A stretch of 64,000 nt of DNA. Source: Streptomyces stelliscabiei. Its GTDB lineage: Bacteria; Actinomycetota; Actinomycetes; Streptomycetales; Streptomycetaceae. Shown in pieces: positions 7,791 through 51,688 of this stretch. Made by a program: the position numbers and the translations under genes. The notes below the pieces were generated by a model. The model searched no databases and had not been told where the DNA came from. It worked only from the letters and a program-made list of their open reading frames with translations. How positions within the stretch are numbered: position 1 is the stretch's first letter; each line of letters starts with the position of its first letter. The stretch is from contig NZ_JADBGF010000001.1 in the NCBI RefSeq assembly GCF_014873495.1, positions 3,410,001 through 3,474,000 of the forward strand. The letters are read 5' to 3'.

Positions 7791-7794
7791 GGGC

Positions 7795-7820: not shown

Positions 7821-7842
7821 ACGGCGATGCCGTTCCTCCGGA

Positions 7843-11212: not shown

Positions 11213-11215
11213 CCC

Positions 11216-11368: not shown

Positions 11369-11590
11369 CGCAGGGGCAGCCTCTCGGTCGACAGGTCGTC
11401 CCCACCCAGGGCACCCCGCGGACTCAGTGTCAGCAATGCATTGACACTGCGTCAAGACTCCGCCTACGGTTCCCGGCCCATACACAGCCCCCACACCCAG
11501 CCCCCGTCCGCACGCGCACATTCCCCCAGGCGTCGCACTTTCCGCACGCCTACCCGAGTCGCACCTCCCAACGCCCCCTGGAGTGCCCGG

Positions 11591-12568: not shown

Positions 12569-12877
12569 CAGGGCGTCAGTTGAACAAACCCCGGAAATTG
12601 TCACGCCGGTGAGTAGCAGCTTCGTACCGCTGGGCGAAAACTGTCCACCCCACCTGAGCACAGCCCACCCACACCTCGCCCACAGCGACTCCCGGCACTC
12701 CCCCGCAACTCCGAGCACCTGCAAGCAACTTTCAGCACCTTCCAGCACCTTCCAGCACCTTCGAGGAACGAGAGAGCCGAACGACCCCACCCGGACCCCC
12801 CGCCCACCGGAACATCCCCCACGGCGAACGTCCTTCTCCCCGCTGAGTTCCGCACCCCGAGACGAGTTGGAGCACCC
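12569..12877. other. Gene-free region with a 10-bp tandem repeat
   Basis: No gene seen. At 12731-12760 the decamer TTCCAGCACC occurs three times in tandem (first copy with one mismatch). The region presumably holds the promoter of the glycosyltransferase operon, but no clear -35/-10 pair was found. Confidence 0.6.
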
Positions 12878-14029: not shown

Positions 14030-14862
14030 GCGCGAGACGGGGTGCCGCGACAGCGCGTTGGCGAGCGCGGGTGCGTGGTGGCTGGTCGCTCCCCCATCGC
14101 GGCGGAGCCGCACAGGTCACAGCCCCGCGCCCCGTTCGGGACCCCTCTGTGAAACGCTCCGTGTCCCTCTTCCGGGCGTTCATGCGGGAGCAGGACGACC
14201 CGGAGTACTGCTACACGCTGCTCGCGCGTGACGCCGTCGACCAGGTCGAGGCGTACGGCGGCCGGCCCGTGGACGGGCTGACCGTCGTCGATGTCGGCGG
14301 TGGCAGCGGGTACTTCACCGAGGAGTTCCGGCGCCGGGGTGCCCAGGCGTACCTCTTCGAGCCGGACCTACGGGAGTTGGGGACCAAGCCGCCGGACGGG
14401 TCCGTCGTCGCCGACGGGTATCTCCTCCCCCTGGCCGACGGGGTCGCGGACGTCACCTTCACCTCCAACGTGCTGGAGCACGTGGCCGATCCGCCGACCT
14501 TCCTCAGCGAACTCGCGCGGGTCACCCGGCCCGGCGGGCTGATCTACGTGTCGTTCACGAACTGGCTGTCCCCCTGGGGCGGGCACGAGTGGGCACCCTG
14601 GCACTACCTGGGGGCCGACCGGGCGCGGGCCCGCTATCGGCGCCGTACGGGCAAGGACGCCAAGCACACCCTCGGCGAGAACCTCTTCGCCGTGCACATC
14701 GGACGCACTCTGCGGCAGGTGCGCGGCCGGGACGACGTGACGGTCGTGTCGGCGCGCTCCCGCTACTGGCCGTTTCTCGCGGAGACCGTCGTGAAGGCGC
14801 CGGGACTGCGTGAGTTCGCCACCTGGAACCTCCTCCTCATCCTCCGGCGGTGTCCACCATGA
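14026..14862 (+). CDS. Class I SAM-dependent methyltransferase
   Basis: About 278 residues if translation begins at GTG 14026, overlapping the glycosyltransferase stop (GTGA). The conserved part begins only at VKRSVSLFRAFMREQDDPEYCY, so GTG 14149 is an alternative start. The SAM site motif VVDVGGGSGYF, the acidic LFEPD strand end, and TSNVLEHVADPPTFLSELARVTRPGGLIYVSF are standard class I features. Rv0224c of M. tuberculosis is a comparable methyltransferase beside a GT4 gene. The likely role is methylation of a glycan or lipid intermediate. It couples by ATGA to the DUF3367 gene. Confidence 0.88.
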   Translation: MSARRGAATARWRARVRGGWSLPHRGGAAQVTAPRPVRDPSVKRSVSLFRAFMREQDDPEYCYTLLARDAVDQVEAYGGRPVDGLTVVDVGGGSGYFTEEFRRRGAQAYLFEPDLRELGTKPPDGSVVADGYLLPLADGVADVTFTSNVLEHVADPPTFLSELARVTRPGGLIYVSFTNWLSPWGGHEWAPWHYLGADRARARYRRRTGKDAKHTLGENLFAVHIGRTLRQVRGRDDVTVVSARSRYWPFLAETVVKAPGLREFATWNLLLILRRCPP

Positions 14863-17800
14863 CGAGCACGGTCCAGGCTCCACCCCCCGCGCCGGTACGG
14901 CCCGCGGGCACGACCGAGGGACCTCCCGAGGGCCCTCGGTCGCGGCGCTGGCTGCTGGGATTCTGGGCCGTGGTGTTCGTCCTGCTGGTCGCCGCCCAAC
15001 CGGGCAGGCAGACCTTCGACACCAAGCTCGGCGTCACCACCGACCCCTGGCAGTTCGTCTCCGACCTCGGTCAGCTGTGGCACGACCGGGGCGGGTTCGG
15101 CGGCATCCAGGACCAGTACGTCGGATACCTGTGGCCGATGCTGCCGTACTACGGGCTGACCGATCTGGTCGGGCTGCCGGTGTGGCTGGCGGAGCGGCTG
15201 TGGCTGTCGCTGATCGTGTCGGTGGCCTTCTGGGGCGCGCTGCGGCTGGCGGAGCGGCTGGGCGTGGGAAGTTCGGCGTCGAGGCTGCTCGCCGCCTCGG
15301 CCTACGCGCTGTGGCCCGTGTTCACCACCGTCGTCGGGTCGACCTCGGCCGCCGCGCTGCCGGGGGCGTTCCTGCCGTGGGTGCTGCTGCCGCTGACGAA
15401 CGAGCGGTACAGCGCGCGGGTGGCCGCCCTGCGTTCGGCGCTCGTCATCCCGTTCATGGGCGGGGTCAACGCCTCCGCGACCCTGGCCTCGCTGCTGCCC
15501 GTCGGGCTGTATCTGCTCACCCGCAGGCCGGGACCCCGGCAGCGCGGGCTGATCGCCTGGTGGGTGCCGGGGGTGCTCCTGGCGACCGCGTGGTGGGTGG
15601 TCCCGCTGCTGCTGCTCGGCTTCTACGGCGAGAACTTCCTTCCCTACGTGGAGAGTTCGCAGACGACGACGGCCACGATGTCCGCCACCGAGGCACTGCG
15701 CGGCGCCGGGAACTGGGTGGGCTATCTGAACTTCGGTGAGCCCTGGCTGCCGGCCGGCTGGTCCGTCGCCGCGTCCGTGGTCGTCATCCTGGCGTCGACG
15801 GTGGCCGCGGGGCTGGGCCTGGCCGGGCTGGCCCGGCGGGACATGCCCGAGCGCCGGTGGCTGGTGCTGACCGTGCTGGTGGTCGCGCTGTTCACCCTGG
15901 CCGGGTACGGCGGCGCGTTCGGGGCGCCCTTCCACGGGGTGGTCCAGGACTGGCTGAACGGGGGCCTCGTGCCCTTCCGGAACATCTACAAGTTCCAGAC
16001 GGGGCTGGCACTCGCGCTCGTCCTCGGGCTGGCGCACCTGGTGGGCGTGGCCGCTTCGGCGCAGGGGGCCCGGCGGGTGCGGGGGCGGCGGTTCGCGCCG
16101 CTGGTCGCGGCCGTCCTGGTCGTACCGGGGCTGCTGTGGCCGTACCTCAACGGATCGGTGCTGCAGCCGGGTTCGTTCCAGGAGCTGCCCAAGTACTGGC
16201 AGGCGACGGCGAACTGGCTGGAGAAGTACTCCCCGGACTCCCGCGCACTGGTCGTACCGGCCACCGCGCACGGCATCTACACCTGGGGCACCACCGTCGA
16301 CCAGCCCCTCGACGTCCTCGCCGACTCCCGCTGGGCACAGCGCGACTACGTCCCCTTCGGCACCCCCGGCAACCGGCGCGCGATGGACGCCGTCGAGCAG
16401 GCACTGCTGACCGGGGGCGAAGTCCCCGGTCTGGGCGACTACTTGAGCCGTGCGGGCCTGTACTACGTCGTCGTACGCAACGATCTGGACCCCGACCAGA
16501 TCGGCGCGGTGCCGACGGCGACCGTGAAGCGGACCCTGGAGCAGTCCGGGTACGAGCGGGTGACCGGGCTCGGGCCGGTGATGACCGGCGGACGGATCGC
16601 CGAGGGCACCCCGATGCAGGTCGAGGGCCTGTACGCGCGACAGCGGGCCGTGGAGATCTACCGCCCGGCCGAGGACGTGCCGCGCCCCGGCCAGGCCGGG
16701 CTGAAGGCCATCGCCGACACGGCCGTCGTCTCCGGCGGCCCCGAGTCGCTGCTGCCGCTGGCCGCCGACCCGGAACTGCGCGACCGTGCCACCGTGCTGA
16801 CCGGCGACAACCACCCCGGGCTCGGTACGCCGGCCGTGCAGGTGGTCGGTGACGGGCTGCGCCGCGCGGACACCCGCTTCGGCCTGGTCAACGCCAACAC
16901 GTCGTACACGTACACGGCGAACGAGCGGAACCCGAGCGGGAGCGTGCAGGACCCCGGTGCGCGGCCGAAGCAGATCCTGCCGGTGTCGGGCCTCGACCAC
17001 CAGACGGTGGCCGAGCTGCGGGGCGCCAAGTCGGTGACCGCGTCGACCAGCGGCAACTGGCTGTTCCATCTGCCGCAGTACGACCCGGTGAACGCCTTCG
17101 ACGGCGACCGGGGCACCGCCTGGGCGGAGGGCGCGGCCGGTTCGGCGGACGGGCAGTGGCTGCGGATCGACTTCGACGGCAGCCAGGACCTCCCGGCGGC
17201 CTTCGAGGTCACACCGCTGCCGCAGGACGGGGTGCGGTCGGCGCCGACCCGGATCAAGGTGGAGACCGAGCGGGGCTCACGCTCCACGAACCTCCAGGCG
17301 GACGGATCCACCCAGAAGGTCGATGCCGCTCCCGGCGACACGAGTTGGCTGAAGATCACGATCCTCGACTCGGCGGAGCGGCACACCGGACTCGTCGGCG
17401 CCGGCTTCTCCGAGATCGACCTGCCCGGCGTCAGGGTCACCCGGATGCTGCGGCTGCCCACGGACGCCCAGGACCCCGACGGCACGGCCGCCTCCGCCGA
17501 GGTGGTCTCGCTGCGGCGGGCCGCCGACCCGACCGGCCTCTCCCCCACGGGCACGGAACCGGGGCTGCACCGCACCTTCGGCACCAGCACGGCGGGGACG
17601 TACGAGGTGAAGGCGACGGCCGTCCCCGTGCCGGGCGACGAACTCGACAAGCTGCTCTACAAGGCCGCCCCCGAGCAGCAGAGCCAGATCAAGGCGAGCG
17701 CGGAGTCCACGGCCTCCCTCGGGGCCGGGCTCTCGCCGCGCAACCTGACCGACGGCGACCTGACCACGGCGTGGATCGCGGGCGACGACCCCACGATCCA

Positions 17801-38846: not shown

Positions 38847-39893
38847 ATGACCGCGATGACCGCCAGTCTGGAGCAGCTGCGCCGCTGCCACTTCGGCGTC
38901 GACCTGGGAGCCGCGCGGACCCGCGTGTACGTGAAGGGCGCGGGCCTGGTGGTGGACCAGCCGAGCGTGGCCGCCGTGAACACCCGGACGGGCGCGCTGA
39001 TCGCCGTCGGGGAGTTCGCCGAGAAGATGATGGGCCGTACGCCCGACTACATCAGGGTGGTCCGGCCCGTCTCCAGCGGCACGGTGGTCGACATCGAGAT
39101 GGCCCAGCGGATGCTGCGTCAGCTGCTGGGCGACCGGGTCCGCCGCAACCTGCGCCGCAAGCCCGTCCTGCGCGCGGCCGCCTGCACCCCGCACGACGCG
39201 GACCCGCTCGCCCAGCGCGCCACGATCGAGACCCTGGTGGGCCTCGGCGCCCGGCGCGTGGAACTGGTCGACACGCTGATCGCGGCGGCCGTGGGCTGCG
39301 GGCTGCCCGTCGAGCAGCCCGAGGCCACGATGATCATGGTCTGCGGTGCGGGGGCCACCGAGCTGGCCGTCCTCTCCCTCGGCTCGGTCGTCAGCGCCGT
39401 ACGCATCCCCGTCGGCGGTGAGGCCATCGACCACGCGATCGTGCAGCACCTGCGGCTGCGTCACGAACTGACGCTGCCCAGCCAGTCCGTACGGCCGCTC
39501 CAGCTCGCCCTCTCCGGCAACGGCCTCACCCCGCACGGCCCCGCCTCCACCGAGATCCACGGCCTCGACGTGGCGACCGGGCTCGCACGCTCCGTCCAGG
39601 TGGACACCGCGGCCGTTCGCGACGCCATCCAGACCCCGCTCACCGCAGTGGTCGACGGCATCGGCAAGGTGCTGCGCGACTGCCCGCCCGACCTGGTGGC
39701 CGACCTCGCCGACCGCGGCATCATGATGGTCGGCGGCAGCGCCCTCCTCCCCGGCTTCGACCAGATGCTCCGGCACGCCACCGGCATGCCGGTCCACATC
39801 GCCGAACGCCCCGACGTCTGCGCCGCCCTCGGCATCGGTGCCATGCTGGACGGCCGTATCGCCCCCATCAGCCTGGACCCGGTGGGCGACTGA
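38847..39893 (+). CDS. mbl: MreB-like actin homologue (Mbl type)
   Basis: About 348 residues from ATG 38847 with GGGAGGA 7-8 nt upstream. Actin-fold motifs: FGVDLGAARTRVYVKGAGLVVDQPSVAAV, YIRVVRPVSSGTVVDIEMAQRMLRQLL, ATIETLVGLGARRVELVDTLIAAAVG, and RGIMMVGGSALLPGFDQMLRHATGMPVHIAE. The phosphate-2 loop reads MVCGAGATELAVLSLG in place of the usual VDIGGGTTE, losing the Asp. This divergent short form matches Streptomyces Mbl, which cooperates with MreB in spore wall synthesis. It lies downstream of the mat genes but has its own leader. Confidence 0.88.
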   Translation: MTAMTASLEQLRRCHFGVDLGAARTRVYVKGAGLVVDQPSVAAVNTRTGALIAVGEFAEKMMGRTPDYIRVVRPVSSGTVVDIEMAQRMLRQLLGDRVRRNLRRKPVLRAAACTPHDADPLAQRATIETLVGLGARRVELVDTLIAAAVGCGLPVEQPEATMIMVCGAGATELAVLSLGSVVSAVRIPVGGEAIDHAIVQHLRLRHELTLPSQSVRPLQLALSGNGLTPHGPASTEIHGLDVATGLARSVQVDTAAVRDAIQTPLTAVVDGIGKVLRDCPPDLVADLADRGIMMVGGSALLPGFDQMLRHATGMPVHIAERPDVCAALGIGAMLDGRIAPISLDPVGD

Positions 39894-40191: not shown

Positions 40192-40683
40192 ATGCCAGGC
40201 CACGTGACCCGGATCGGTATCACCGGACACCGCGAGATCCCGGACGCCGCCCTCCCCGCCGTCCGCGCCGGCCTCCGGGCGGAGTTGGGGGGCCGTCCCG
40301 CCGCCACCCGGGCCCTCAGCAGCCTCGCCGCCGGCGCCGACCAGCTCTTCGCGGAGATCGCCCTGGAGAGCGGTCTGCAACTGACCGCCGTCATTCCCGG
40401 CATGGACTATGAGGCCCACCTCGGCGACGACGAGGTCAGGGCCGCCTACCGCCGGCTCCTGAAGTGCTGCGGCGAACGCGTGGAACTGCCGCGCGAACGC
40501 ACCCACGAGGAGGCGTACCACGCGGCCGGCCGCTACATCGTCGACCACGCCGACCGCCTGATCGCCGTCTGGGACGGCGACCCGCCCCGCGGCCTCGGCG
40601 GGACGGCCGACATCGTCGACTACGCCCGCCTCACGTGCGTCCCGGTGACCGTGCTGTGGAGCCCGGGCGTACGCCGCGCCTGA
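40192..40683 (+). CDS. SLOG (DprA/LOG-like Rossmann) domain protein
   Basis: About 163 residues from ATG 40192 (GGAGG at 12 nt; GTG 40180 possible). The whole protein is one Rossmann-like domain: RIGITGHREIPDAALPAVRAGL, TRALSSLAAGADQLFAEIALESGLQLTAVIPGMDYEAHL, EEAYHAAGRYIVDHADRLIAVWDGDPPRGLGGTADIVDYAR. The GHR start, the AGAD turn and the GGT near the end match SLOG proteins, predicted to bind or make nucleotide-derived signals. It is tail-to-tail with a SLATT/DUF4231 membrane protein, the effector class named for association with SLOG. No enzymatic activity is proven. Confidence 0.72.
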   Translation: MPGHVTRIGITGHREIPDAALPAVRAGLRAELGGRPAATRALSSLAAGADQLFAEIALESGLQLTAVIPGMDYEAHLGDDEVRAAYRRLLKCCGERVELPRERTHEEAYHAAGRYIVDHADRLIAVWDGDPPRGLGGTADIVDYARLTCVPVTVLWSPGVRRA

Positions 40684-40736: not shown

Positions 40737-41651
40737 TCAGGACCCGAACCGCACCAGCCAGTCCGTGTGCTGGGGCGAGACGACCCGCTCCGCCTCCGCG
40801 ACCGCGTCGGCCCAGCCGTCCTCACCGACGGTGGTGCTCATGGCGACGCGCAGGGTGTCCAGGTCCTGTTCGACGAGCTTGTGCGCGTACGTCAGCGGCC
40901 GGTGCCGCCGGACCTCCTGCCAGGCGACGCCCGCGGCGGCCGCGGCGCTCAGCACCCCGGTGGGGTCCCAGCGGCCGTCGATCGTCCCCAGGGCCCGCAA
41001 CACGGCGGTGACCAGCGCCAGCAGCGTCAGAAAGGTCGTCATGCCCGACCATCGCACGGACGAGCGATGCGCCTCCCCGGCGCTGTTGCCGTACCAGGAG
41101 AGCTGTTCCAGGACGCGGTCGCGGAGATAGATGTCGCGCCGCGCCGCGAACGGCTTGGCGCGGACCGCGCGCATCATGGGCGTGATCTGCCCGAGCCCGA
41201 GTTCGGTGACGGCCTCCCGGGGGTCGTCCCACCCGACCTTGCGCAGCTCGCTGAGCCGTTCCTCCAGCCGCTCCGCGAACAGCGCCTCGGGATTGACGAG
41301 CCGTGAGGGGAACGGCCCGCCATGCACCATGAACTGCCAGGCCAGCGACTTGACCACCTCGGCCGCCGCCCGATGCGCCTGCCACTGCACCCGGGCACGA
41401 CGACGGGACGCGTAGACCCCGATCCCCATCGTCAGGGCGTACAGCACGGCCGCCACGGCCGACGGCACCCGGCTGCCCATCCGCTCGGCCAGGGAAGCGG
41501 TCGCGGTGGCGAGCAGCAGCACGACCAGCTGCGTACGGACGACCTTGAAGGATTCCCCCTGATGGGTCACCGCCTTCTCGTCGCACACGTGGAACAACGG
41601 GGACAGATCTCGATCACTCACCGTGGTGCTGGGGCCGGGCGTCGCAGCCAT
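40737..41651 (-). CDS. SLATT/DUF4231 two-TM effector-like protein
   Basis: About 304 residues from ATG 41651 (GAGGTG 6 nt upstream). Two pairs of membrane helices are visible: LVVLLLATATASLAERMGS with VAAVLYALTMGIGVYAS, and MTTFLTLLALVTAVLRALG with VLSAAAAAGVAW. Between and after them are conserved soluble segments, WQAHRAAAEVVKSLAWQFMVHGGPF and YLRDRVLEQLSWYGNSAGEAHRSSVRWSG. This fits DUF4231/SLATT (SMODS and SLOG-associating 2TM effector), thought to act as a membrane effector in nucleotide-signalled conflict systems. It is convergent with the SLOG gene and divergent from fxsA. Confidence 0.8.
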   Translation of the reverse strand: MAATPGPSTTVSDRDLSPLFHVCDEKAVTHQGESFKVVRTQLVVLLLATATASLAERMGSRVPSAVAAVLYALTMGIGVYASRRRARVQWQAHRAAAEVVKSLAWQFMVHGGPFPSRLVNPEALFAERLEERLSELRKVGWDDPREAVTELGLGQITPMMRAVRAKPFAARRDIYLRDRVLEQLSWYGNSAGEAHRSSVRWSGMTTFLTLLALVTAVLRALGTIDGRWDPTGVLSAAAAAGVAWQEVRRHRPLTYAHKLVEQDLDTLRVAMSTTVGEDGWADAVAEAERVVSPQHTDWLVRFGS

Positions 41652-41879
41652 GCACACCTCGTACGGATGCCGAAGTCGACGGAATGGTCATGCTCTCGTC
41701 AATCTTGAATTCGCGCCAGGCCGCCTCCCGCTCATATCGCGCAGCGAACACCTGTCGGCGCATGATAGAAACGCGCACGTCTGTAGTCTGTCGTCCCCCC
41801 TCATGTCCGAGCCTCGACCAAAAGGATCTCGTCAGCAAGGGACCGATGACAGCGTCCCTTTTTTCGAACTGGAGCGACG
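41652..41879. promoter_or_regulatory. Divergent promoter region of the SLATT gene and the fxs operon
   Basis: 228 bp with visibly lower GC (aatcttgaattcgc, catgatagaaacg, cccttttttcgaac). No fixed -35/-10 spacing could be assigned confidently. GGAG precedes fxsA by 6 nt. Confidence 0.45.
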
Positions 41880-42059
41880 ATGAACCTTTCCCTCACGAAG
41901 ACGACACGTGGATCGGACACCACCCGGTCGGCCCACAGGAGGCTCGCCCCGCTCGCGACGGTCGCCGCACACGAGCCCCGCACCCAGCGTTCCACCGGAC
42001 GGGTGACGGACGCTCGCGACCTGGACCTCGCCAGGCAGGGCTTCACCTCCAGCATCTGA
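41880..42059 (+). CDS. fxsA: FxsA, FxSxx-COOH RiPP precursor peptide
   Basis: A 59-residue protein too short for most gene finders: it starts MNLSLTKTTRGSDTTRSAHR and ends exactly in FTSSI before TGA, matching the F-x-S-x-x-COOH signature of this precursor family. GGAG lies 6 nt before the ATG. The N-terminal 50 residues act as leader, with a DARDLDLARQG helix just before the core. In the family, the radical SAM enzyme FxsB links the Phe ring to the Ser beta-carbon, forming a three-residue cyclophane; here that would be Phe55-Thr-Ser57. The fxsB gene begins 58 bp downstream. The final bioactivity is unknown. Confidence 0.9.
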   Translation: MNLSLTKTTRGSDTTRSAHRRLAPLATVAAHEPRTQRSTGRVTDARDLDLARQGFTSSI

Positions 42060-42117
42060 CACGGGTCGGCCGGGGCCTCAACCTCCTTGTTGATCAAGGA
42101 AGTTGGGCCCCGTCGTC

Positions 42118-44316
42118 ATGTCTTCCCCGGATGACGTGAGGGCTTACACTGCCGAAGTGAGGGACCCCGCGATCCAGCAACTGGTACTCAAGATCCACAG
42201 TCGGTGCGACCTGGCGTGCGACCACTGTTACGTGTATGAGGCCTCCGACCAGTCGTGGCGTTCGCGGCCGACCGTCATCTCCGAGGAAACCGTCGTCCAA
42301 GTGGCCCGACGCCTCACCGAGTACGTGCTGGCGAGAAATCTGGATTCCGTCACCGTCATTCTGCACGGCGGTGAACCGCTCCTCGCCGGACCGGCCCGGC
42401 TCCGGCGAATCTGCGCGGAACTCACCCTTGCCCTCGCCCCGGTCACCGCCCTCGATCTGCGTATTCACACCAACGCCGTACGGTTGAACAGAGATCATTT
42501 GCAGATCTTCGACGAATTCCGGGTAAAGGTGGGGGTCTCGCTCGACGGCGACCGTGTCGCCAACGACCGCCACCGGCTCGACCGTCGGGGCCGCAGCAGC
42601 TACGACCGGGTCCTGCGGGCGATCGAACTCCTCCGCCTCCCCGAACACCGGCATCTCTACCAGGGCCTTCTGTGCACGGTGGACGTGGCCAACGACCCGG
42701 TCGCCGTGCACGACGCGCTGACCTCGCTCGATCCGCCCCGGATCGACTACCTGCTCCCCCACTCCACCTGGGACTTCCCGCCCCCCGGTCAGCAAGCCGG
42801 GGGACCGCCGACGCCCTACGCCGACTGGCTGCTGAGGGTCTTCGACCGGTGGGAGGAACAGGGGCGCCCCATGCCGGTGCGCACCTTCGAGTCGGTGCTC
42901 AGCACGCTGCGCGGCGGCCCCAGTCTCACCGAGGCACTGGGGCTCGCGCCGTCCGACCTGGCCGTGATCGAGACCGACGGCACCTTCGAGCAGGCGGACT
43001 CGCTCAAGACGGCGTACGAGGGTGCCCCGGCGACCGGCTACGACGTCTTCCGGCACGGTTTCGCGGAGTTCGCCGAGCATCCCGGTGTCCGGGCCCGCCA
43101 GCTGGGCATCGCGGGCATCAGCGACACCTGCCGCCGCTGCCCGGTCGTGGAGTCCTGCGGCGGCGGCCTCTACGCCCATCGCCACAGCAAGGAGAAGGGC
43201 TTCGACAACCCGTCGGTGTTCTGCGCCGACCTGCGGGGCCTGGTGGAGGGCATCGCTGAGCGGATCACCGACCACGCGCTCCACCCGGCGGTCACCGACG
43301 CCGAGGAACTGCGGCTGGCGCAACTGCGGTTGGACCGGGACCTGCTGGCCCGGGTCAACGCGCGGCTGGCGGGCGACCCCGACTGGGACGCGGCCTGGCG
43401 GGTGCTGGTCCGGCTGGACGCCGACGGCGCCACCGCCGCGCACCTCAACACCGTCCTCGCCCACCCGTATCTGCGGACCGTGCTGCGCCGCTCCCTGGAC
43501 GGCCCCGCGGACCTCCCCCGACTGCTGGCGGCGGTCACGGCGGCCGCCGTGTCGGCGGGCGCGGAGGCCACCCTCACCTGGCGGCAGCCCGGCCCGGACC
43601 TCCACCTGCCGACCCTCGGCACCGTGCGGCTGTCGGGCCCCGGGCGGGTGGAGTGCGTGAGCACGGCGAACGGTCTCCAGGTACACGGCACGGGGGACGA
43701 CGGCACGGAACTCACCGCCGGGTGGCGGCCGTCGCAGACGGTGGAACTCCTCGACGGACCGGCGCTGCTCCTCGACGACGCCGATCCCTCCCGCGACCGC
43801 TTCGAGGCGCCGGTCGCGGACCCCCTGCCTCCGAGCGACCTGGCCCTCTTCGTGAAGCGGCTGCAGGCGGCCCACGAGGCGCTGGACGCGCGGGAGCCCG
43901 GCTGGCGCAAGGCCGCCGACGCACTCGTCGTGACCACGATCACCCCGCTCGCCCCGGGCTGCGGACTACGGCTCGGCACCCACGCGTTCGGCGCGCTCGG
44001 TGTGGCCGTCGACTTCGAACCGGACGCGTTCGTACGGGAACTGCCGCTCCTGGGGCGCAGATCCAGGCTCGCGGCCCTGCGGGAGGTCACGGATCTGTGC
44101 GTGCCGGGCAGCGACGCCGGGCGGTTGCTCGACGAGGCGAGTGCGTGCGTGGGAGGCCTGGCCTCGGCCCCCCACGACACCGCCGCGTCGCTGCGCCGAC
44201 GGGCGGAGGACGCCCTGGACAGGCTCGTCTCCACCTCCTCGGGCCGTCGCCTCACGTCGAGCGGGCTGCACCTGGTCGACGAGCTGCGTGCGGAACTGGC
44301 GGTGGTGCATGGCTGA
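42118..44316 (+). CDS. fxsB: FxsB, cyclophane-forming radical SAM/SPASM maturase
   Basis: About 732 residues from ATG 42118 (TTG 42103 is in frame but directly abuts the AAGGAAG site). Residues 20-260 are the radical SAM core with Cys30, Cys34 and Cys37 (CDLACDHCYVYE) and LHGGEPLLAG. A SPASM-type cluster region follows: Cys338, Cys341, Cys347 (CRRCPVVESCGGGLYAHRH) and Cys369 (FCADL). The C-terminal about 250 residues resemble the HExxH-type domain often fused to FxsB, but where HExxH is expected the sequence reads LLGRRSRLAALREV, so that site looks inactive. It should crosslink the FTS core of FxsA. Overlaps the AAC(3) gene. Confidence 0.93.
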   Translation: MSSPDDVRAYTAEVRDPAIQQLVLKIHSRCDLACDHCYVYEASDQSWRSRPTVISEETVVQVARRLTEYVLARNLDSVTVILHGGEPLLAGPARLRRICAELTLALAPVTALDLRIHTNAVRLNRDHLQIFDEFRVKVGVSLDGDRVANDRHRLDRRGRSSYDRVLRAIELLRLPEHRHLYQGLLCTVDVANDPVAVHDALTSLDPPRIDYLLPHSTWDFPPPGQQAGGPPTPYADWLLRVFDRWEEQGRPMPVRTFESVLSTLRGGPSLTEALGLAPSDLAVIETDGTFEQADSLKTAYEGAPATGYDVFRHGFAEFAEHPGVRARQLGIAGISDTCRRCPVVESCGGGLYAHRHSKEKGFDNPSVFCADLRGLVEGIAERITDHALHPAVTDAEELRLAQLRLDRDLLARVNARLAGDPDWDAAWRVLVRLDADGATAAHLNTVLAHPYLRTVLRRSLDGPADLPRLLAAVTAAAVSAGAEATLTWRQPGPDLHLPTLGTVRLSGPGRVECVSTANGLQVHGTGDDGTELTAGWRPSQTVELLDGPALLLDDADPSRDRFEAPVADPLPPSDLALFVKRLQAAHEALDAREPGWRKAADALVVTTITPLAPGCGLRLGTHAFGALGVAVDFEPDAFVRELPLLGRRSRLAALREVTDLCVPGSDAGRLLDEASACVGGLASAPHDTAASLRRRAEDALDRLVSTSSGRRLTSSGLHLVDELRAELAVVHG

Positions 44317-45082
44317 TACGACTCGGCCGCGCGACGCGCTCGCCGGCATCGGTGTCCGGCCCGGTGGTGTCCTCATGGTCCACTCCTCGTTGCGCGGCAC
44401 CGGATGGAGCCCCACCGAGGTACGCAACGCCCTGCTGGACACCCTCGGCCCCGACGGGACACTCGTCGTCCCCGCCTTCACCCCGGAGAACTCCGACACC
44501 TCCCCCGCCCATCACCGCCGTACCGAGGGGATGACCGAGCGGGAGAAGGCCGAGTTCCGCGCGTCGATGCCCCCGTTCGAACCGAACGCCACCCCCTGTC
44601 CCACCATGGGCGCGCTCGCCGAGTGTGTGCGGACCACTCCCGGGGCGGTGCGCAGCGCGCATCCGCAGACCTCGTTCGCCGCGATCGGACGCCGCGCCGA
44701 GGAGCTTCTCGCCGGCCACGACCCGTACTGTCACCTCGGTGAGCGGTCCCCGTTGGCGGCGCTGTACGAGGCGGGCGCGCAGGTGCTGCTGCTGCGGGTC
44801 GGGTTCGAGGTGTGCACCGCCTTCCATCTCGCCGAGTACCGGATGACCCCGCCGCCGCCCACCCGCACGTATCGCTGTGTGGTGGAGGACAAGGGCAATT
44901 GGATCGAGTATCCGGATCTCTCTTTGTTCGACGGCGACTTCGCGGCGATCGGCGCTCGACTACCGCATGCTTTGTTCACGGAAAGGGAGTTCGCGGGAAA
45001 ACCGACGTTTCTGTTCGAGATACGCGATGCTGTCGACGCGGCCCGGCATCTGATGTCCGGATATCGCTCTGAAATGACGTGA
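44309..45082 (+). CDS. AAC(3)-family N-acetyltransferase in the fxs operon
   Basis: 257 residues from ATG 44309, overlapping fxsB by 8 bp. Family features: VRPGGVLMVHSSLRGTGWSPTEVRNALLDTLGPDGTLVVPAFTPENSD, CPTMGALAECVRTTPGAVRSAHPQTSFAAIGRRAEELLAGHDPYCHLGERSPLAALYEAGAQVLLLRVGFEVCTAFHLAEYR. Classical members acetylate aminoglycosides at N3 using acetyl-CoA. Position between maturase and fxsC argues instead for acetylation of the FxsA-derived peptide or a related amine. Not evidence of drug resistance by itself. GC falls towards the 3' end. Confidence 0.87.
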   Translation: MADTTRPRDALAGIGVRPGGVLMVHSSLRGTGWSPTEVRNALLDTLGPDGTLVVPAFTPENSDTSPAHHRRTEGMTEREKAEFRASMPPFEPNATPCPTMGALAECVRTTPGAVRSAHPQTSFAAIGRRAEELLAGHDPYCHLGERSPLAALYEAGAQVLLLRVGFEVCTAFHLAEYRMTPPPPTRTYRCVVEDKGNWIEYPDLSLFDGDFAAIGARLPHALFTEREFAGKPTFLFEIRDAVDAARHLMSGYRSEMT

Positions 45083-45178
45083 AACGAGCCATGTGCCCGG
45101 GGGTTGATCGGGCACATTGTTGGTTCCGGCTGGAGGGCGCCTGGGCGGGGGGCACGAGGCATCGAAAGGCGGGGGCGT

Positions 45179-48100
45179 GTGGACACATCTGCGCGGGGGC
45201 GGGCTCCGGACAATCGGCCGTACTTCTTTCTCAGTTACGCGCACACACCGCCTTCGGGACCCGACAGCGGCGATCCCGACCACTGGGTGCACCTGCTCTA
45301 CAAGGATCTGTGCGCGGACGTCCTGGCCCTCACCGCTCATCCGCGGGGGACGCCCGCGGGATTCCTGGACCGGGAGATGCGGTCCGGGGAGGGCTGGCCC
45401 GACCGGCTCAGTGAGAACCTCGCGCACTGCCGGGTGTTCGTCCCGCTGTACTCGCCCCGCTATTTCTCCAGCGACAACTGCGGCCGTGAGTGGTTCGCCT
45501 TCGACGAGCGCATACGCGAGGCCCGCAACGCGGGCCTCGGCGACATCCCGGCCATCGTCCCGGCCCTGTGGACGAGCATGGACCTCGAAAACCTCCCCGA
45601 GTCCGTACGACAGATCCAGGTCGAGCGCTCCCAGTACGGCGAGCGCTACACGTCGTACGGGATCTACGGGCTGATCAAACTCAAACGGCTGCGGGACGAG
45701 TACGAGGAGATCGTGTTCGGTCTCGCCCAGCGGATCGTGCAGGTCGCCGAGAACACCCCGCTGCCGTCGAGCCGGCCCCGGCCCTACGAGTCCACGCACA
45801 GCGCGTTCCGGCCGCACGGCGAGGGGCCACGCCGTATCCACCTCACCGTGGCCGCGCCCAGCCGCAGTTCGGTCCCGGAAGGCCGCGACGCCGTCCCCTA
45901 CGGCGAGGACGCCACGGAGTGGAACCCTTACCACAGCGAGTCGAGGCGACCGCTGTCCGCACTGGCCGAGGAACTGATCCGGTCACTGGACTACCGGATC
46001 ACCGTGTCGGACTTCGATCTGCCGGACCCCGGCACCGACGGTCTCACCCCGGGCGACACCGAGGCCGACGGCACCGGGCAGCCGCTCGAACCCCATCCGG
46101 GCATCCTGCTGCTCGACCGCTGGGCCCTGCTCGACCGGGACCGGCGCCACCGGCTCAAGACGTTCGACTCGGCCGCTCACCCGTGGGTCGGGGTGATCGT
46201 CCCCTGGAACCGCCTCGACCTCCAGTGCCGCGGTGAACAGGGCGAGCGGCTGAAGGAGCAGCTGGAGGACACCCTGCCGGTGATCCTGGAGCGGGGGCGC
46301 CGCGCCAAGTGCTGGGCGGCGGTCAACGGCGTACCCACGCTGAAGCAGTTCACCGAGATCCTGCCGGTGGTCGTGGCCCAGGCGACCCGGCAGTTCCTCA
46401 GACACGCCAAGGCCCACCCGCCCCCCCGGCCCGGTCACCCCGAGGCCCCGGCTGAGTCTCGCCGATCCGACCTACCCCGATGCGGATTCCGACCACGGAG
46501 GAGAAGCATGACGGCCCGTAAGGACGGACGCATCATCACCTTCTACTCGTACAAGGGCGGTACGGGCCGCACGATGGCCCTGGCCAACGCGGCCTGGATC
46601 CTGGCCGCCAACGGCAAGCGGGTGCTCGCCGTCGACTGGGATCTGGAGGCACCGGGCCTGGACCGCTTCTTCCAGCCGTTCCTCGATCCGAGCGTCCTCG
46701 CGTCCACCACCGGCGTCCTGGACATGATCACCGAGTACTGCTGGGCCGCGACCACCGGAGGCCCGCGCAGCGGACCCTGGCACCGGGACTACGCCCGGGT
46801 CGAGCAGCACGCCGTGTCCCTCGGCCCCGAGCGGCTCGGGCTGTCCTTCCCCGAGGGCGGCTCGCTCGACTTCCTGTCGGCCGGCCGGCGGAACCGGGAG
46901 TACTCGGCGACCGTGTCGTCGTTCGAATGGGACAACTTCTACGAGCGGCTGGGCGGCGGCCAGTTCCTGGACGCGCTGCGCGAGGACATGAAGGGGTCCT
47001 ACGACTACGTCCTCATCGACAGCCGCACCGGCCTGTCGGACAGTGCGGACATCTGCACCATCCAGATGCCCGACGTGCTCGTCGACTGCTTCACGCTCAG
47101 CGGTCAGTCGCTGGACGGGGCCGCCGCCGTGGCCCGCAGCGTCGAGGGCGGCCAGCACAAGCGGCGGATCAGGGTGCTGCCGGTGCTGATGCGCATCGAC
47201 GAGGGCGAGAAGCGGAAGGTCGACGCGGGCCGGGCCCTGGCACGGCTGCGGTTCGAGGGGCTGCCCAGGGGCCTCGACGGCGAGGAGTTCGGCGCCGAGC
47301 AACAGGACGCCTACTGGGGCGCGATGGAGATTCCGTACGTCCCGTTCTACGCGTACGAGGAGACGCTCGCGACCGTCGGCGACAAGAGCAACATCGCCAA
47401 CTCCCTGCTGTCCGCCTTCGAACGGCTGACGAAGGTGATCTCCGACGGTGAGGTCACCGCGCTGCCACCGATCCCCGAACCGGTGCGCCAGCGCTGTCTG
47501 GAGGCGTTCACCCGGCGGCAGCCGATGACGGACATCCTCATCGTGTACGCGGCGGAGAACCGGATGTGGGCGGACTGGGTGGAGGCCGTCCTCAGACAGG
47601 CCGGGTGCAACGTCACCCTGCACGACGTGTCCACCGGCCCCCCGGAGCGCCTGGACACCGCCACGCGCGCCCTGCTGTTGGTGTCCCACGCCTTCCAGAA
47701 GTCCCGGCACGCCCTGTCGGTCTGGCGCTCCCTGGCCGACACCGCCCTGGCGATGCCACGCGCCGCCACGGTGCCGCTGCGCGTGGACGAGGTCCGTTTC
47801 CCCGACGCGTACGTCGACCACGAGCCGGTGGACCTCTACCGGTTCGACGCCGGCCAGTGCGTCTCCGCCCTGCTCGGCGCGCTGAAGCTGCCCGAGCGGC
47901 CCGACGACCTCGTGGTCGTGGAACCACGCTTCCCGGGCAGCGCGCCGACCGTGTGGAACGCGCCGCAGCGCAACACCACGTTCACCGGCCGCAGCCGCAT
48001 CCTGGACGAGCTGCGGGAACAGCTGCGGGGCGGGGTGTCGGCCGTGGGGAGCCAGCCCAAGACCCTGTTCGGTCTCGGTGGCGTCGGCAAGACCCAGGTC

Positions 48101-50458
48101 GCGCTGGAGTACGTGCACCGGTTCATGGCCGACTACGACCTGGTGTGGTGGATCTCCGCCGAGCACGGCGACGGCGTCACCTCCGCCCTCGCCGAACTCG
48201 GCGCGCGCATCCACGCGCCCGGCGGCGACGACATGACACTGGTCAGCCAGGAGACCGTACGGATGCTCGCCGAGGGGGTGCCGACCAAGCGCTGGATCCT
48301 GGTCTTCGACAACGCCGACAACCCCGAGGAACTGACCAGGTTCTTTCCGCAGGGCGGCGGCGGTCACATCCTCGTCACCTCCCGCAACCAGACCTGGGAG
48401 CAACGGGGCACCTCGCTGCCCGTCGACGTCTTCCCCCGGCACGAGAGCGTCGAGCACCTGTCGCGGCGGGCCCCCGGGCTGAGCGCCGACGAGGCGGACC
48501 GGGTGGCGGAGGCGGTCGGCGACCTGCCGCTGGCGGTGGAGCAGGCGGCCGCCTGGCTCGCCGAGACGGCCACTCCCATCGAGGAGTACCTGCGCCAGCT
48601 GAACGAACAGACCACCGGTGTTCTGGACCTCAACCAGCCCGCCGACTACCCGCAGACGGTGGCGGCGACCTGGAACATCTCCATCACCCGGCTGCGGGAT
48701 CGCTCGCCCGCCTCGGTGCGGCTGCTGCAGCTGTGCGCCTTCATGGCCCCCGAGCCGATCTCCTCGCACCTGCTGTACAGCCGGGAGATGCTCGACGAGC
48801 TGAAGAAGGTCGACCCGAGTCTGCAGGAGAGCCTGATGCTGGGCCGGGTCATCCGGGAGATCGGCCGCTTCGCCCTCGCCAAGGTCGACCAGGCCAGCAC
48901 CAGCATCCAGGTCCACCGTCTGGTGCAGGCCGTGATCCGCTCCCGGCTCACCGAGGAGGAGCAGCGGCAGGCCCGGCACGTGGTCCACACGATGCTCGTC
49001 GGTGCCCGTCCGCCCGGGGACGAACCCATCGACGATGCCGAGACCTGGCCCCGCTTCGCCATCATCTGGCCGCATCTGAACGCCTCCGAGCTGCGCGACT
49101 GCCACGAGGTCGAACCCCGCCGGCTGCTCATCGACCGGGTCCGCTACCTGTGGAAGCGCGGCGACTTCCCCGGTGCGCGCAGACTCGCCGAGGACCTGCT
49201 GGCGTACTGGAAGGAGACGCTCGGCGAGGACGACATGCAGTACATGTACCTGCACGGCCAGCTCGCCAACGTGCTGCGCACCCAGGGGCGTTTCGTGGAG
49301 GCACGCGACATCGACGAGGAGGTGCGCGAGCGGCAGCTGAGGGTGCTGGGCCCCACCCATCCCCACACCTACGTCACCACCTCCAGCCTCGCCAGCGACC
49401 TCGCCGCCCTCGGCGAGTACACCAAGGCGGTGAAGCTGGCCCGCGAGGCCCACCAGGGGTTCAGCCAGATCTTCCACGAGTCGCACGGCCGGACGCTCAA
49501 CGCCGCGAACAACCTCGCGCTCGCGTTGCGCATGGTCGGTCACTACGACGAGGCCCGCGACGTCGACCAGGACACCTACACCCGTCGCCGGGAGGTACTC
49601 GGGCCCGACCATCCCTACACGCTGATCTCGGCCCAGGGACTCGGCCGCGATCTGCGCGAGGTCGGCCGCTACACCGACTCGGTGGCGGTCCTGTCCGAGG
49701 CGTACGAGATCCACAAGCGGATTCTCGGCAAGGACTTCCCCGGCACGCTCAGCTGCGCCAAGTCGCTCGCGGTGTCGCTGAGGCGGGCGGGCCAGTTCGT
49801 GGACGCGCATCGGCTGACCCGGGCGACACTCACCCAGTACCGGACCCAGTACACGAGGGACAAGTACCCGGAGCCGATTCCCGACTCGCTCGCCTGTGAG
49901 CTGAACCTGGCGGCCGACCTGTACGCCGCCGACGAGCCGGACCGGGCGCGCGAGACGGTCCGGAGCGTGCTGGAGCACTATGTGCAGGTGCCGGGCAGGG
50001 AGCATCCCTACACCCAGGCCGCGCTCAACAACCTCGGCATCTACCTGTGGGCCTGCGGGGACGCGGAGGAGGCCGAGGAGGTGTTCCAGCAGGTCACGGA
50101 GCGCATGGCGGCGGGACTCGGCGAGGAGCACCCCCACACCCTCTTCGCCCGCGCGAACCACGCCAACGTACTGGCGGAGAAGGGCCGTCCGGAGGAGGCC
50201 TGGGCCCTGGAGGAGCCGTCCCGCAACGTCCTGAAGTCCCTCCTCGGCCCCCAGCACCCCGAGACCCTCGCCGTCGTCAGCAACTCCGCGTTGACGCTGC
50301 GTGCCCTGGGCCGTGAGGAGGAGGCCCAGCGCCTGCGCGAGGCGACCCTCGCGGAGCTGCGCCGGCTCGGCCAGAAGCTGGGCGAGGGCAACGGGATCAC
50401 CCGTCTGGTGGGTCAGCGGCGGCGGGTGTACCGGGACCTGGAGCCGCTGGCCGTGTGA
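45179..50458 (+). CDS. fxsC: FxsC (TIR-like) continuous in frame with FxsT
   Basis: From GTG 45179 there is no stop until 50458, giving a potential 1759-residue protein. The first about 440 residues are FxsC: a TIR-like domain (PYFFLSYAHTPPSGPDSGDPDHWVHLLYKDLCADV, LDREMRSGEGWPDRLSENLAHCRVFVPLYSPRYFSSDNCGREWFAF) and a C-terminal region ending near HAKAHPPPRPGHPEAP. FxsC and FxsT are normally separate proteins. Here a run of seven C at 46421-46427 lies just before the junction; one additional C would bring TGA into frame at about 46453. Either a true fusion or an indel. The FxsC family role in peptide-linked signalling is unproven. Confidence 0.75.
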   Translation: MDTSARGRAPDNRPYFFLSYAHTPPSGPDSGDPDHWVHLLYKDLCADVLALTAHPRGTPAGFLDREMRSGEGWPDRLSENLAHCRVFVPLYSPRYFSSDNCGREWFAFDERIREARNAGLGDIPAIVPALWTSMDLENLPESVRQIQVERSQYGERYTSYGIYGLIKLKRLRDEYEEIVFGLAQRIVQVAENTPLPSSRPRPYESTHSAFRPHGEGPRRIHLTVAAPSRSSVPEGRDAVPYGEDATEWNPYHSESRRPLSALAEELIRSLDYRITVSDFDLPDPGTDGLTPGDTEADGTGQPLEPHPGILLLDRWALLDRDRRHRLKTFDSAAHPWVGVIVPWNRLDLQCRGEQGERLKEQLEDTLPVILERGRRAKCWAAVNGVPTLKQFTEILPVVVAQATRQFLRHAKAHPPPRPGHPEAPAESRRSDLPRCGFRPRRRSMTARKDGRIITFYSYKGGTGRTMALANAAWILAANGKRVLAVDWDLEAPGLDRFFQPFLDPSVLASTTGVLDMITEYCWAATTGGPRSGPWHRDYARVEQHAVSLGPERLGLSFPEGGSLDFLSAGRRNREYSATVSSFEWDNFYERLGGGQFLDALREDMKGSYDYVLIDSRTGLSDSADICTIQMPDVLVDCFTLSGQSLDGAAAVARSVEGGQHKRRIRVLPVLMRIDEGEKRKVDAGRALARLRFEGLPRGLDGEEFGAEQQDAYWGAMEIPYVPFYAYEETLATVGDKSNIANSLLSAFERLTKVISDGEVTALPPIPEPVRQRCLEAFTRRQPMTDILIVYAAENRMWADWVEAVLRQAGCNVTLHDVSTGPPERLDTATRALLLVSHAFQKSRHALSVWRSLADTALAMPRAATVPLRVDEVRFPDAYVDHEPVDLYRFDAGQCVSALLGALKLPERPDDLVVVEPRFPGSAPTVWNAPQRNTTFTGRSRILDELREQLRGGVSAVGSQPKTLFGLGGVGKTQVALEYVHRFMADYDLVWWISAEHGDGVTSALAELGARIHAPGGDDMTLVSQETVRMLAEGVPTKRWILVFDNADNPEELTRFFPQGGGGHILVTSRNQTWEQRGTSLPVDVFPRHESVEHLSRRAPGLSADEADRVAEAVGDLPLAVEQAAAWLAETATPIEEYLRQLNEQTTGVLDLNQPADYPQTVAATWNISITRLRDRSPASVRLLQLCAFMAPEPISSHLLYSREMLDELKKVDPSLQESLMLGRVIREIGRFALAKVDQASTSIQVHRLVQAVIRSRLTEEEQRQARHVVHTMLVGARPPGDEPIDDAETWPRFAIIWPHLNASELRDCHEVEPRRLLIDRVRYLWKRGDFPGARRLAEDLLAYWKETLGEDDMQYMYLHGQLANVLRTQGRFVEARDIDEEVRERQLRVLGPTHPHTYVTTSSLASDLAALGEYTKAVKLAREAHQGFSQIFHESHGRTLNAANNLALALRMVGHYDEARDVDQDTYTRRREVLGPDHPYTLISAQGLGRDLREVGRYTDSVAVLSEAYEIHKRILGKDFPGTLSCAKSLAVSLRRAGQFVDAHRLTRATLTQYRTQYTRDKYPEPIPDSLACELNLAADLYAADEPDRARETVRSVLEHYVQVPGREHPYTQAALNNLGIYLWACGDAEEAEEVFQQVTERMAAGLGEEHPHTLFARANHANVLAEKGRPEEAWALEEPSRNVLKSLLGPQHPETLAVVSNSALTLRALGREEEAQRLREATLAELRRLGQKLGEGNGITRLVGQRRRVYRDLEPLAV
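46508..50458 (+). CDS. fxsT: FxsT, FxSxx-COOH system ParA-like/TIR/NB-ARC/TPR protein
   Basis: About 1316 residues from ATG 46508, which has GGAGGAG 5 nt upstream, so it can be translated independently of the frame-fused FxsC. Order of domains: a MinD/ParA-like P-loop (IITFYSYKGGTGRTMALANAAW, residues 10-30; VLIDSRTGLSDSAD), a second TIR-like domain from about 340 (DILIVYAAENRMWADWVEAVLRQAG), an NB-ARC ATPase with GLGGVGKTQVALEYVHRF near 522 and LPLAVEQAAAWL, and a TPR array from about 900 to the end (repeated HPHTYVT/HPYTLIS/HPYTQAA/HPHTLFA/HPETLAV units). This STAND-like architecture suggests a ligand-gated sensor, plausibly of the Fxs peptide. Confidence 0.9.
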   Translation: MTARKDGRIITFYSYKGGTGRTMALANAAWILAANGKRVLAVDWDLEAPGLDRFFQPFLDPSVLASTTGVLDMITEYCWAATTGGPRSGPWHRDYARVEQHAVSLGPERLGLSFPEGGSLDFLSAGRRNREYSATVSSFEWDNFYERLGGGQFLDALREDMKGSYDYVLIDSRTGLSDSADICTIQMPDVLVDCFTLSGQSLDGAAAVARSVEGGQHKRRIRVLPVLMRIDEGEKRKVDAGRALARLRFEGLPRGLDGEEFGAEQQDAYWGAMEIPYVPFYAYEETLATVGDKSNIANSLLSAFERLTKVISDGEVTALPPIPEPVRQRCLEAFTRRQPMTDILIVYAAENRMWADWVEAVLRQAGCNVTLHDVSTGPPERLDTATRALLLVSHAFQKSRHALSVWRSLADTALAMPRAATVPLRVDEVRFPDAYVDHEPVDLYRFDAGQCVSALLGALKLPERPDDLVVVEPRFPGSAPTVWNAPQRNTTFTGRSRILDELREQLRGGVSAVGSQPKTLFGLGGVGKTQVALEYVHRFMADYDLVWWISAEHGDGVTSALAELGARIHAPGGDDMTLVSQETVRMLAEGVPTKRWILVFDNADNPEELTRFFPQGGGGHILVTSRNQTWEQRGTSLPVDVFPRHESVEHLSRRAPGLSADEADRVAEAVGDLPLAVEQAAAWLAETATPIEEYLRQLNEQTTGVLDLNQPADYPQTVAATWNISITRLRDRSPASVRLLQLCAFMAPEPISSHLLYSREMLDELKKVDPSLQESLMLGRVIREIGRFALAKVDQASTSIQVHRLVQAVIRSRLTEEEQRQARHVVHTMLVGARPPGDEPIDDAETWPRFAIIWPHLNASELRDCHEVEPRRLLIDRVRYLWKRGDFPGARRLAEDLLAYWKETLGEDDMQYMYLHGQLANVLRTQGRFVEARDIDEEVRERQLRVLGPTHPHTYVTTSSLASDLAALGEYTKAVKLAREAHQGFSQIFHESHGRTLNAANNLALALRMVGHYDEARDVDQDTYTRRREVLGPDHPYTLISAQGLGRDLREVGRYTDSVAVLSEAYEIHKRILGKDFPGTLSCAKSLAVSLRRAGQFVDAHRLTRATLTQYRTQYTRDKYPEPIPDSLACELNLAADLYAADEPDRARETVRSVLEHYVQVPGREHPYTQAALNNLGIYLWACGDAEEAEEVFQQVTERMAAGLGEEHPHTLFARANHANVLAEKGRPEEAWALEEPSRNVLKSLLGPQHPETLAVVSNSALTLRALGREEEAQRLREATLAELRRLGQKLGEGNGITRLVGQRRRVYRDLEPLAV

Positions 50459-50509: not shown

Positions 50510-51412
50510 TCACGCCGCGGCCGGCGCCGTGGCGGTGAGGAGCCAGCTCAGGACGCCCGGCAGGGCCCGGATCGCGGCGAAGTGGGCGGCGGCGGGTTCG
50601 TAGACGGTGACCGCGCCGGGGATGCGGTCGGCGAGCCAGGAGGAGTGGGCGGAGGGGGTGAAGACGTCCTTTCCGGCGTGCCAGAGCAGGACGGGGACCC
50701 TGATCTCCGCCGGGTCGAAACCCCAGGGGCCGGTCAGCGCGAGCGCGTCGTCGATCCAGCCGTACGGCGAGGTCCGCAGCGCCTCGTGGTAGTTGCGCAG
50801 CAGCATCGAGCGGATGCCGTTGTCCGAGACGATCGCCCGGTCCTCGTCGGTGAGATCGCCGCGCAGTTCGTCGAGCAGCCGGGCGGGGTCGGACCGGATG
50901 GCGGCCGACCGGGGAATGAGCTGGGCGACGAAGCCCCGGGGGTCGGTGAGGACCGAGCGGAACTCACGGACGTTGTGCGGGGCCATGCCGGCGAACCAGT
51001 CAAGGCCCTCCGCGTCCTGCGGCGCGAGCGTCACGAGTGCGGCGGCCCGGGTCACCCGGTGGGGCAGCAGAGCGGCACAGGCCAGCGCGTGCGGGGCCCC
51101 GCCGGACCGGCCCACGACGGCGAAGCGGTCCAGCCCCAGCGCGTCGGCGACCACCTCGACGTCCCCCACGACATCCACGACCCGTCGTCCCGGTCGCCGG
51201 TCCGAACCGCCGTACCCGGGGCGGTCGTAGCTGATCAGTCGAGCGCCGCGGTGGTAGAGGAAGATGGACCGGGGTCTCGGTCCCACCCTGCTCCCGGGCA
51301 TGCCGTGCAACAGGAACACCGGCCGTCCGCCCGGATCCCCCGCGCACTCGACCCGCAACCGCCGCCCGTCGGCCGTCCGGACGTGGTCCGGCGTCCGTAC
51401 GAGGTCATGCAC
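50510..51412 (-). CDS. Alpha/beta hydrolase
   Basis: About 300 residues from GTG 51412 with GGAGGGGG 7 nt upstream. Fold motifs: RPVFLLHGMPGSRVGPRPRS (oxyanion region), RLISYDRPGYGGSDRRPG, FAVVGRSGGAPHALACAALLPHRV with the nucleophile Ser in GRSGG, and VPVLLWHAGKDVFTPSAHSSWLADRIPG with the acid Asp, then a late AAAHFAAI with the His. A complete triad is likely. Similar to proline-iminopeptidase or epoxide-hydrolase-like enzymes; the substrate is unknown. It is convergent with the fxs operon and apparently monocistronic. Confidence 0.9.
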   Translation of the reverse strand: MHDLVRTPDHVRTADGRRLRVECAGDPGGRPVFLLHGMPGSRVGPRPRSIFLYHRGARLISYDRPGYGGSDRRPGRRVVDVVGDVEVVADALGLDRFAVVGRSGGAPHALACAALLPHRVTRAAALVTLAPQDAEGLDWFAGMAPHNVREFRSVLTDPRGFVAQLIPRSAAIRSDPARLLDELRGDLTDEDRAIVSDNGIRSMLLRNYHEALRTSPYGWIDDALALTGPWGFDPAEIRVPVLLWHAGKDVFTPSAHSSWLADRIPGAVTVYEPAAAHFAAIRALPGVLSWLLTATAPAAA

Positions 51413-51688
51413 AGCGTCCCCCTCCCTCGGTCCGCAGACCGGGACCACGCTGCCCGAACATTTCCCGCGCGCCCACCCCGCGAAACGAACACGCAGGTCA
51501 AATGGGGCCCACGCAGGGCCTGAGCAGGGCCTGAGCAGCGGAATCTGATGAAGCGTCAGTACACGTCTTGACTTCACCACCCCTTCCCGTCAGATTCGAG
51601 GCTCCGCACACCGCCCGGCGCGAACGGGACCGTCGCCGCCGGGGCGGCAGCACGGCCACCATCCCTTCGTGAGGCTGGAGCGTCCGGC

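Follow-up and report, generated by a model that had tools for sequence, protein, structure and literature searches.

The Streptomyces stelliscabiei genome (10.5 Mb) contains, within the 64,000 nucleotides analysed here (contig NZ_JADBGF010000001.1, positions 3410001-3474000, which we label G000:C1 and henceforth refer to as the window), genes for a modified peptide together with a large STAND-type protein, and the question this locus raises is whether these genes form a unit complete in itself and what such a unit might act upon. Passages of PMC7159879 describe peptide-processing systems of the FxSxx type, some of which stand alone and have AP-ATPase and inactive MinD/ParA parts. The original prediction placed a complete operon of this kind at 41880-50458, and reading frames and family models confirmed its five-gene order of fxsA, fxsB, a gene of AAC(3) fold, fxsC and fxsT, which is an FxSxx-COOH system with an FxsB of the ‘lost HExxH’ subtype (NF040587). 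The precursor C-terminus, the radical SAM/SPASM maturase FxsB, FxsC, and FxsT with its ParA-like, TIR, NB-ARC and TPR parts are all like those of described FxSxx-COOH systems, from which the locus differs in its lost-HExxH FxsB and in the internal AAC(3)-fold gene. From what those passages of PMC7159879 describe, the stand-alone form fits better than the VMAP ternary systems, which have vWA, MoxR and VMAP genes. The operon is, however, not complete as had been claimed, since conserved flanking genes for a SLOG-fold protein, a SLATT protein and an alpha/beta-hydrolase had been overlooked. PADLOC called no defence system, its matches being partial ones of candidate and viperin type.

We compared the window with 100 stretches, namely 96 relatives over the NF040587 cut-off, one locus just below it (L136) and three fxs loci from the same genome; counts out of 101 refer to the window and all 100 stretches, and counts out of 97 to profile searches of the window and the 96 relatives. 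The precursor gene fxsA (plus strand, ATG 41880 to TGA 42059) has the 59 codons and the exact RQGFTSSI C-terminus that had been predicted, the core codons F-T-S-S-I lying at 42042-42056, and its product scored 23.1 bits on TIGR04268, under the cut-off of 28. Conservation of this C-terminus had been set beforehand as a test on which the prediction could fail: for 94 of 98 loci (the window, the 96 relatives and L136; all except L114, L126, L127 and L131), the 1.2 kb preceding fxsB contained an open reading frame ending in F-x-S-x-x-stop, whereas random windows of the same size taken from those loci did so in 11 of 1893 cases. FNSAL was the commonest of the 97 ends tallied (49), followed by FSSAL (11), FDSAL (10) and FNSSL (8), and the FTSSI end was found in four loci (the window, L102, L107 and L110). 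An extra gene for a 218-aa protein lies between the SLATT gene and fxsA, ~1.3 kb upstream of fxsB, in 11 loci, including L037.

The maturase gene fxsB has a longest frame of 42103-44316 (plus strand), and its start is likely one of two in-frame GTG codons at 42136 and 42157. The radical SAM motif reported for its product, CDLACDHCYVYE, is present, and the protein scored 588 bits on TIGR04269 (cut-off 370), with its degenerate C-terminal extension reaching 382 bits on NF040587 (cut-off 225). The CxxxCxxC motif was kept in all 101 FxsB loci. HExxH is absent from the FxsB of the window and occurs as HEFQH and HEYQH in paralogues at two (L133 and L134) of the three other fxs loci compared from the same genome. 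The nearest named relative is FxsB of Streptomyces scabiei 87.22, with 86% identity. Five FxsB genes of the genome exceed the cut-off, the four further ones lying at 5182210, 8192854, 8940920 and 8948858 of G000:C1; at one locus (L135) two FxsB genes flank a single FxsC-FxsT pair. Within the genus, 98 of 392 genomes exceeded the NF040587 cut-off; the order and class samples gave 35 of 147 and 7 of 296, respectively, and the positive genomes listed from these two samples all belong to the genus of the window. A Streptacidiphilus relative (L169) came from another search and stands outside this scoring. As for the chemistry, the triceptide 3-CyFE enzyme MscB belongs to IPR026335, which we take to be the FxsB family. 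MscB is likewise a radical SAM/SPASM protein, and the parts of PMC11002830 that describe it report a link between C4 of Phe and C-beta of Ser, the link expected for F-x-S. FxsB would be predicted to join Phe to Ser within the C-terminus of FxsA, as is known for this class of enzyme.

Two further enzymes are encoded in or beside the operon. The ATG of the AAC(3)-like gene (44309-45082, plus strand, 257 aa) overlaps the fxsB stop codon, and its product matched Antibiotic_NAT with 237 bits; on the AAC_3 model it reached 119.9 bits against a cut-off of 270, with other AAC(3) models lower still, and we rejected an aminoglycoside-resistance label because the protein falls far under every AAC(3) cut-off. 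The gene was found in just 63 of 97 loci, so that the predicted five-gene order, present in the window, is not universal among relatives; Streptomyces griseus NCTC13033 (L216), for instance, has the cassette but no AAC3. More constant is the alpha/beta-hydrolase gene (50510-51574, minus strand, convergent with fxsT; Abhydrolase_1 72 bits, Hydrolase_4 (S33) 32.7 bits), which adjoins the operon in 95 of 97 loci; its start is probably internal to this frame, relatives being ~262 aa long.

The remaining two genes of the operon, fxsC (45179-46450, plus strand, likely GTG start) and fxsT (46508-50458, plus strand), encode the proteins that had been expected. FxsC, which had been called a TIR-like protein, scored 231 bits on NF040588 (cut-off 130) and 149 on TIGR04276 (cut-off 55). 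Its FxsC C-terminal domain is preceded by a domain for which a TIR fold was modelled: in a model of the S. scabiei orthologue (L168, pLDDT 73.6, a moderate value), residues 11-192 matched TIR structures, the best being AbTir with Z 10.7. TIR_2 matched 40 of 40 FxsC orthologues; a search of PDB sequences with the FxsC profile gave chance-level ribosomal matches at best. A CG[RK]E motif is kept with its Glu in 97 of 98 loci, and from TIR motifs we take this Glu to be the candidate catalytic one. FxsT bears out the ParA/TIR/NB-ARC/TPR architecture (NF040586 1022 bits, cut-off 300; AAA_KGGVGR, TIR_2, NB-ARC and TPR, including TPR_12). Of 99 loci, 96 keep an intact NB-ARC P-loop and all 99 have a ParA-like P-loop of the degenerate form KGGTGRT, and the FxsT TIR domain has no conserved Glu at the place corresponding to that of FxsC.

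In the window, fxsC and fxsT form a single open frame (45104-50458), and since this frame stays open across 1784 codons of the assembly we considered whether the strain makes a real, functional fusion protein. The two genes are, however, separate in every testable locus but the window (97 of 98; 101 examined) and in a genome of the same species (G485, L217), and the window stands alone with one frame among 190 loci, some assemblies being counted twice. Moreover, another frame of the window still codes for the C-terminus that FxsC usually has, and fxsT keeps its own ATG at 46508 behind a ribosome-binding-like GGAGGAG. A functional fusion is accordingly very improbable, and we attribute the joint frame to a frame shift where the sequence is rich in C, at ~46.42-46.45 kb, either at the strain level or in the assembly. 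A fusion was also rejected as a novelty, being confined to this assembly.

On the other side of the operon lie the two genes that give the locus its unexpected part. The first (40204-40683, plus strand) encodes a 159-aa protein with no match in Pfam (E 1), NCBIfam (E 0.1) or PDB sequences (E 1). Its AlphaFold2 model (pLDDT 94.7) matched YpsA best among known structures (Z 17.8, rmsd 3.0 over 152 residues), followed by DprA (Z 14.9) and LOG proteins (~11), and by this modelled structure it is a protein of SLOG (SMF/DprA-LOG) fold; the ThsA SLOG entries matched the model with Z 8.3, 7.4 and 7.0, a range also reached by merely similar arrangements. A conserved segment of the family reads GGTxDIV and presumably lacks the Glu of the LOG motif, for which reason a sensor fits better than a LOG-type hydrolase. 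In the passages of PMC9503650 that treat them, YpsA-like SLOG domains include sensors of cADPr. A second, remoter SLOG relative is encoded in the same genome (G000:C1, 5509684-5510172, 132 bits), and weaker relatives (no more than 152 bits) are more widespread among the 80 genomes chosen for the comparison described below. The second gene (40737-41657, minus strand, longest frame 306 aa, alternative start ~41588) is convergent with the SLOG gene and divergent from fxsA, and encodes a membrane protein of SLATT_3-SLATT_1 architecture (PF18184, 159 bits; PF18181, 129 bits; cut-offs 26.3) with three clear hydropathic segments and a fourth below threshold. SLATT domains are predicted in those same passages of PMC9503650 to be membrane effectors regulated by ADPr derivatives. 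The divergent region between the SLATT gene and fxsA (41658-41879) could be aligned among close relatives, and we draw no firm operator motif from this alignment.

Both SLOG and SLATT were present in 90 of 97 loci, and in 19 of 20 further loci and 72 of 80 named loci, which partly represent the same assemblies; FxsC was present in 94 of the 97 and FxsT in 95. At L084 the two genes have decayed together, leaving remnants of 42 and 65 bits, and L126 has SLATT without SLOG. Six of the 97 loci (L104, L114, L117, L119, L125 and L127) lack both, and five of these keep FxsC and FxsT intact. L114, L117, L119, L125 and L127 form one clade, their neighbour gene also adjoins SLATT in other loci, and the gene lists, which covered 15 loci, contained no recognisable replacement effector in these five. 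Losses also occur on the side of the operon: L123 keeps SLOG-SLATT, fxsA and fxsB and has lost FxsC and most of FxsT, and L104 keeps fxsA and fxsB without FxsC, FxsT, SLOG or SLATT. The conserved unit thus exceeds the operon, with SLOG and SLATT on one side and the alpha/beta-hydrolase on the other.

Such an association could reflect neighbourhood alone: FxSxx would then be an intracellular or exported triceptide signal regulated by FxsC and FxsT, and SLOG-SLATT a separate defence or stress module in a shared, stable neighbourhood. Consistent with this, SLOG-SLATT lies outside the operon with SLATT on the opposite strand, the parts occur apart in the six loci named above, and in 17 loci (e.g. 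L065, L067 and L068) the fxs operon has the opposite orientation with respect to its SLOG-SLATT and its hydrolase flank alike, as would be expected of mere neighbours. The wider gene contexts argue the other way. The left-hand neighbour of the unit was a DUF1684-like gene (named by eye) in 55 of 101 loci and an MreB-like gene in 25 (in the window at 38847-39893, MreB_Mbl 359 bits), never both, and gene calls placed SLATT in 52 of the 55, 20 of the 25 and 18 of the 21 loci with neither. In five genomes with the DUF1684-like context (G090, G107, G124, G242 and G371) the MreB-like orthologue is 0.7-0.9 Mb away from fxs, indicating that the unit has occupied different chromosomal sites and kept SLOG-SLATT. 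No orthologue of the DUF1684-like gene was found in the genome of the window, and the gene gave a 39% match in one of five genomes, which is uninformative on synteny.

For the distribution of the pair among genomes we chose 80, of which 21 have the subtype and 59 lack it; the 20 carriers other than the window were picked in the knowledge that some lack SLATT, so the set gives no carrier rate. A close SLOG (>250 bits) and a close SLATT (>230 bits) were found in exactly the same 16 of the 80 genomes. Just two of the 59 genomes without the subtype (G007 and G081) have a close SLATT, which speaks against a separate module, and four others of the 59 (G022, G088, G101 and G110) have weak SLATT relatives of 32-34% identity. 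FxsB over the cut-off occurred in at least 13 of the 59 genomes, a part of which was scored, and one of the 13, G007, has a close SLATT. In G007 (L237, G007:C1:5590000-5609900, at 6715-16758 of that stretch) the SLOG, SLATT and AAC3 genes adjoin fxsB, fxsC and fxsT of another lineage with its own precursor ending in FDSAL, so that the pair is linked to a different fxs lineage as well; the start of the L237 FxsT is almost like that of L135 in the genome of the window. In G081, on the other hand, a SLOG-SLATT pair (L238, 9168-10809) stands alone, the 20 kb read there being free of fxs genes, which is in keeping with separate modules. No SLOG-SLATT pair was found at the three other fxs loci of the window’s genome or at the Streptacidiphilus locus, and in the class search 57 genomes from outside the genus, a majority of them with FxsB-like matches, gave no match to SLATT. 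Taken together, the co-occurrence of the two genes, their place beside a second fxs lineage and the travel of the pair to different chromosomal sites make linkage of SLOG-SLATT to fxs well supported, and we consider a separate module in a shared neighbourhood possible and, on balance, somewhat unlikely.

What could a linked SLOG-SLATT pair do? Passages of PMC7159879 that mention SLATT concern other systems, and the linked SLOG and SLATT genes seen here go unmentioned in what they say of FxSxx systems; a search of the open-access literature found no paper joining SLATT with FxSxx. Two known systems offer comparisons. Phage TIR-SLATT gene pairs are described in part of PMC9503650, and they resemble the present locus in having TIR beside SLATT. 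The same SLATT_3-SLATT_1 architecture recurs in distant proteins that adjoin TIR-WD40 proteins (L239, 6032-9913, where the TIR-WD40 protein also matches ThsB_TIR, and L241, 9429-14135), which independently supports an association of TIR with this type of SLATT; at L240 no TIR was found in the part scanned. These pairs differ from the locus in that no RiPP genes accompany them in the stretch read and, at L239 and L241, in the fusion of TIR with WD40; these two loci possibly represent a separate TIR-SLATT system. The other comparison is Thoeris, as described in the portion of PMC11204291 that deals with it. Here too one locus brings together a TIR domain carrying a putative catalytic Glu, a protein of SLOG fold and a membrane effector. 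The likeness is incomplete: ThsA is a SIR2-SLOG or TM-macro fusion, whereas here a stand-alone SLOG protein of 159 aa is accompanied by a membrane protein with SLATT alone, and a RiPP pathway and a STAND protein lie upstream. The locus may therefore work like Thoeris, and having no such ThsA we do not class it as Thoeris.

The reading we prefer, at a rough probability of 0.4, is tentative: the peptide/STAND system would control a Thoeris-like relay from TIR through SLOG to a SLATT membrane effector. What is shown here extends to which parts are present, how well they are conserved and how they fold; each mechanistic arrow between them we infer. After FxsB has joined Phe and Ser at the FxsA C-terminus, the STAND protein FxsT would use its TPR and NB-ARC regions to read the cross-linked peptide, or a disturbance of it. 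FxsT has no conserved Glu in its own TIR and may then gather the Glu-bearing FxsC into an active, NAD+-cleaving assembly. The SLOG protein would bind a product of the ADP-ribose type and switch SLATT, which would permeabilise the membrane and lead to growth arrest or cell death; the SLOG and SLATT steps draw on the likeness to Thoeris TIR-SLOG signalling and on the published SLATT predictions. Trimming or capping of the peptide might conceivably fall to the hydrolase and the AAC(3)-like enzyme. That the SLOG and SLATT genes lie outside the fxs transcript we count against such a circuit, and if the circuit model is right, the fact that some intact fxs loci have lost SLOG-SLATT implies that this output is exchangeable or dispensable.

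The divergent orientation of the SLATT gene and fxsA also suggests another arrangement, in which modified FxsA is itself a toxic or amplifying effector and SLATT one of its membrane targets or an immunity factor; in the passages of PMC7159879 concerned, the FxSxx peptide is indeed proposed as a toxin or signal coupled to an AP-ATPase effector. Against this, the core is highly conserved, with FNSAL in 49 of the 97 ends, which resembles a ligand more than it does a diversifying toxin, and of those conserved neighbours that were scanned none was recognised as a transporter. The retention of FxsB at L104, without FxsC, FxsT, SLOG and SLATT, likewise does not favour it, and we regard a toxic peptide as distinctly unlikely.

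Returning to the peptide-controlled TIR-SLOG-SLATT circuit, a more specific form of it, which we offer as a rather unlikely proposal, holds that the cyclophane RiPP serves a bacterial STAND-TIR immune complex as its ligand, either guarded or activating: FxsT would read cross-linked FxsA and turn on the FxsC TIR, FxsC would make an NAD+-derived signal, a new SLOG family would sense it and a SLATT pore would execute the response. If this were true, the peptide would become the first known case of a RiPP gating nucleotide-signalled cell death, with a stand-alone SLOG protein between TIR and pore. Overall, the FxSxx system was already known and the linked SLOG-SLATT module is its new part, which brings to light a conserved SLOG family unmatched by Pfam and NCBIfam. 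The linkage appears to strengthen the signalling or defence role at which the original prediction had guessed. The cassette suggests a peptide-linked cell-suicide or alarm circuit, and with linked SLOG and SLATT as a plausible output for FxSxx systems, what was a question of peptide chemistry becomes a testable question of signalling.
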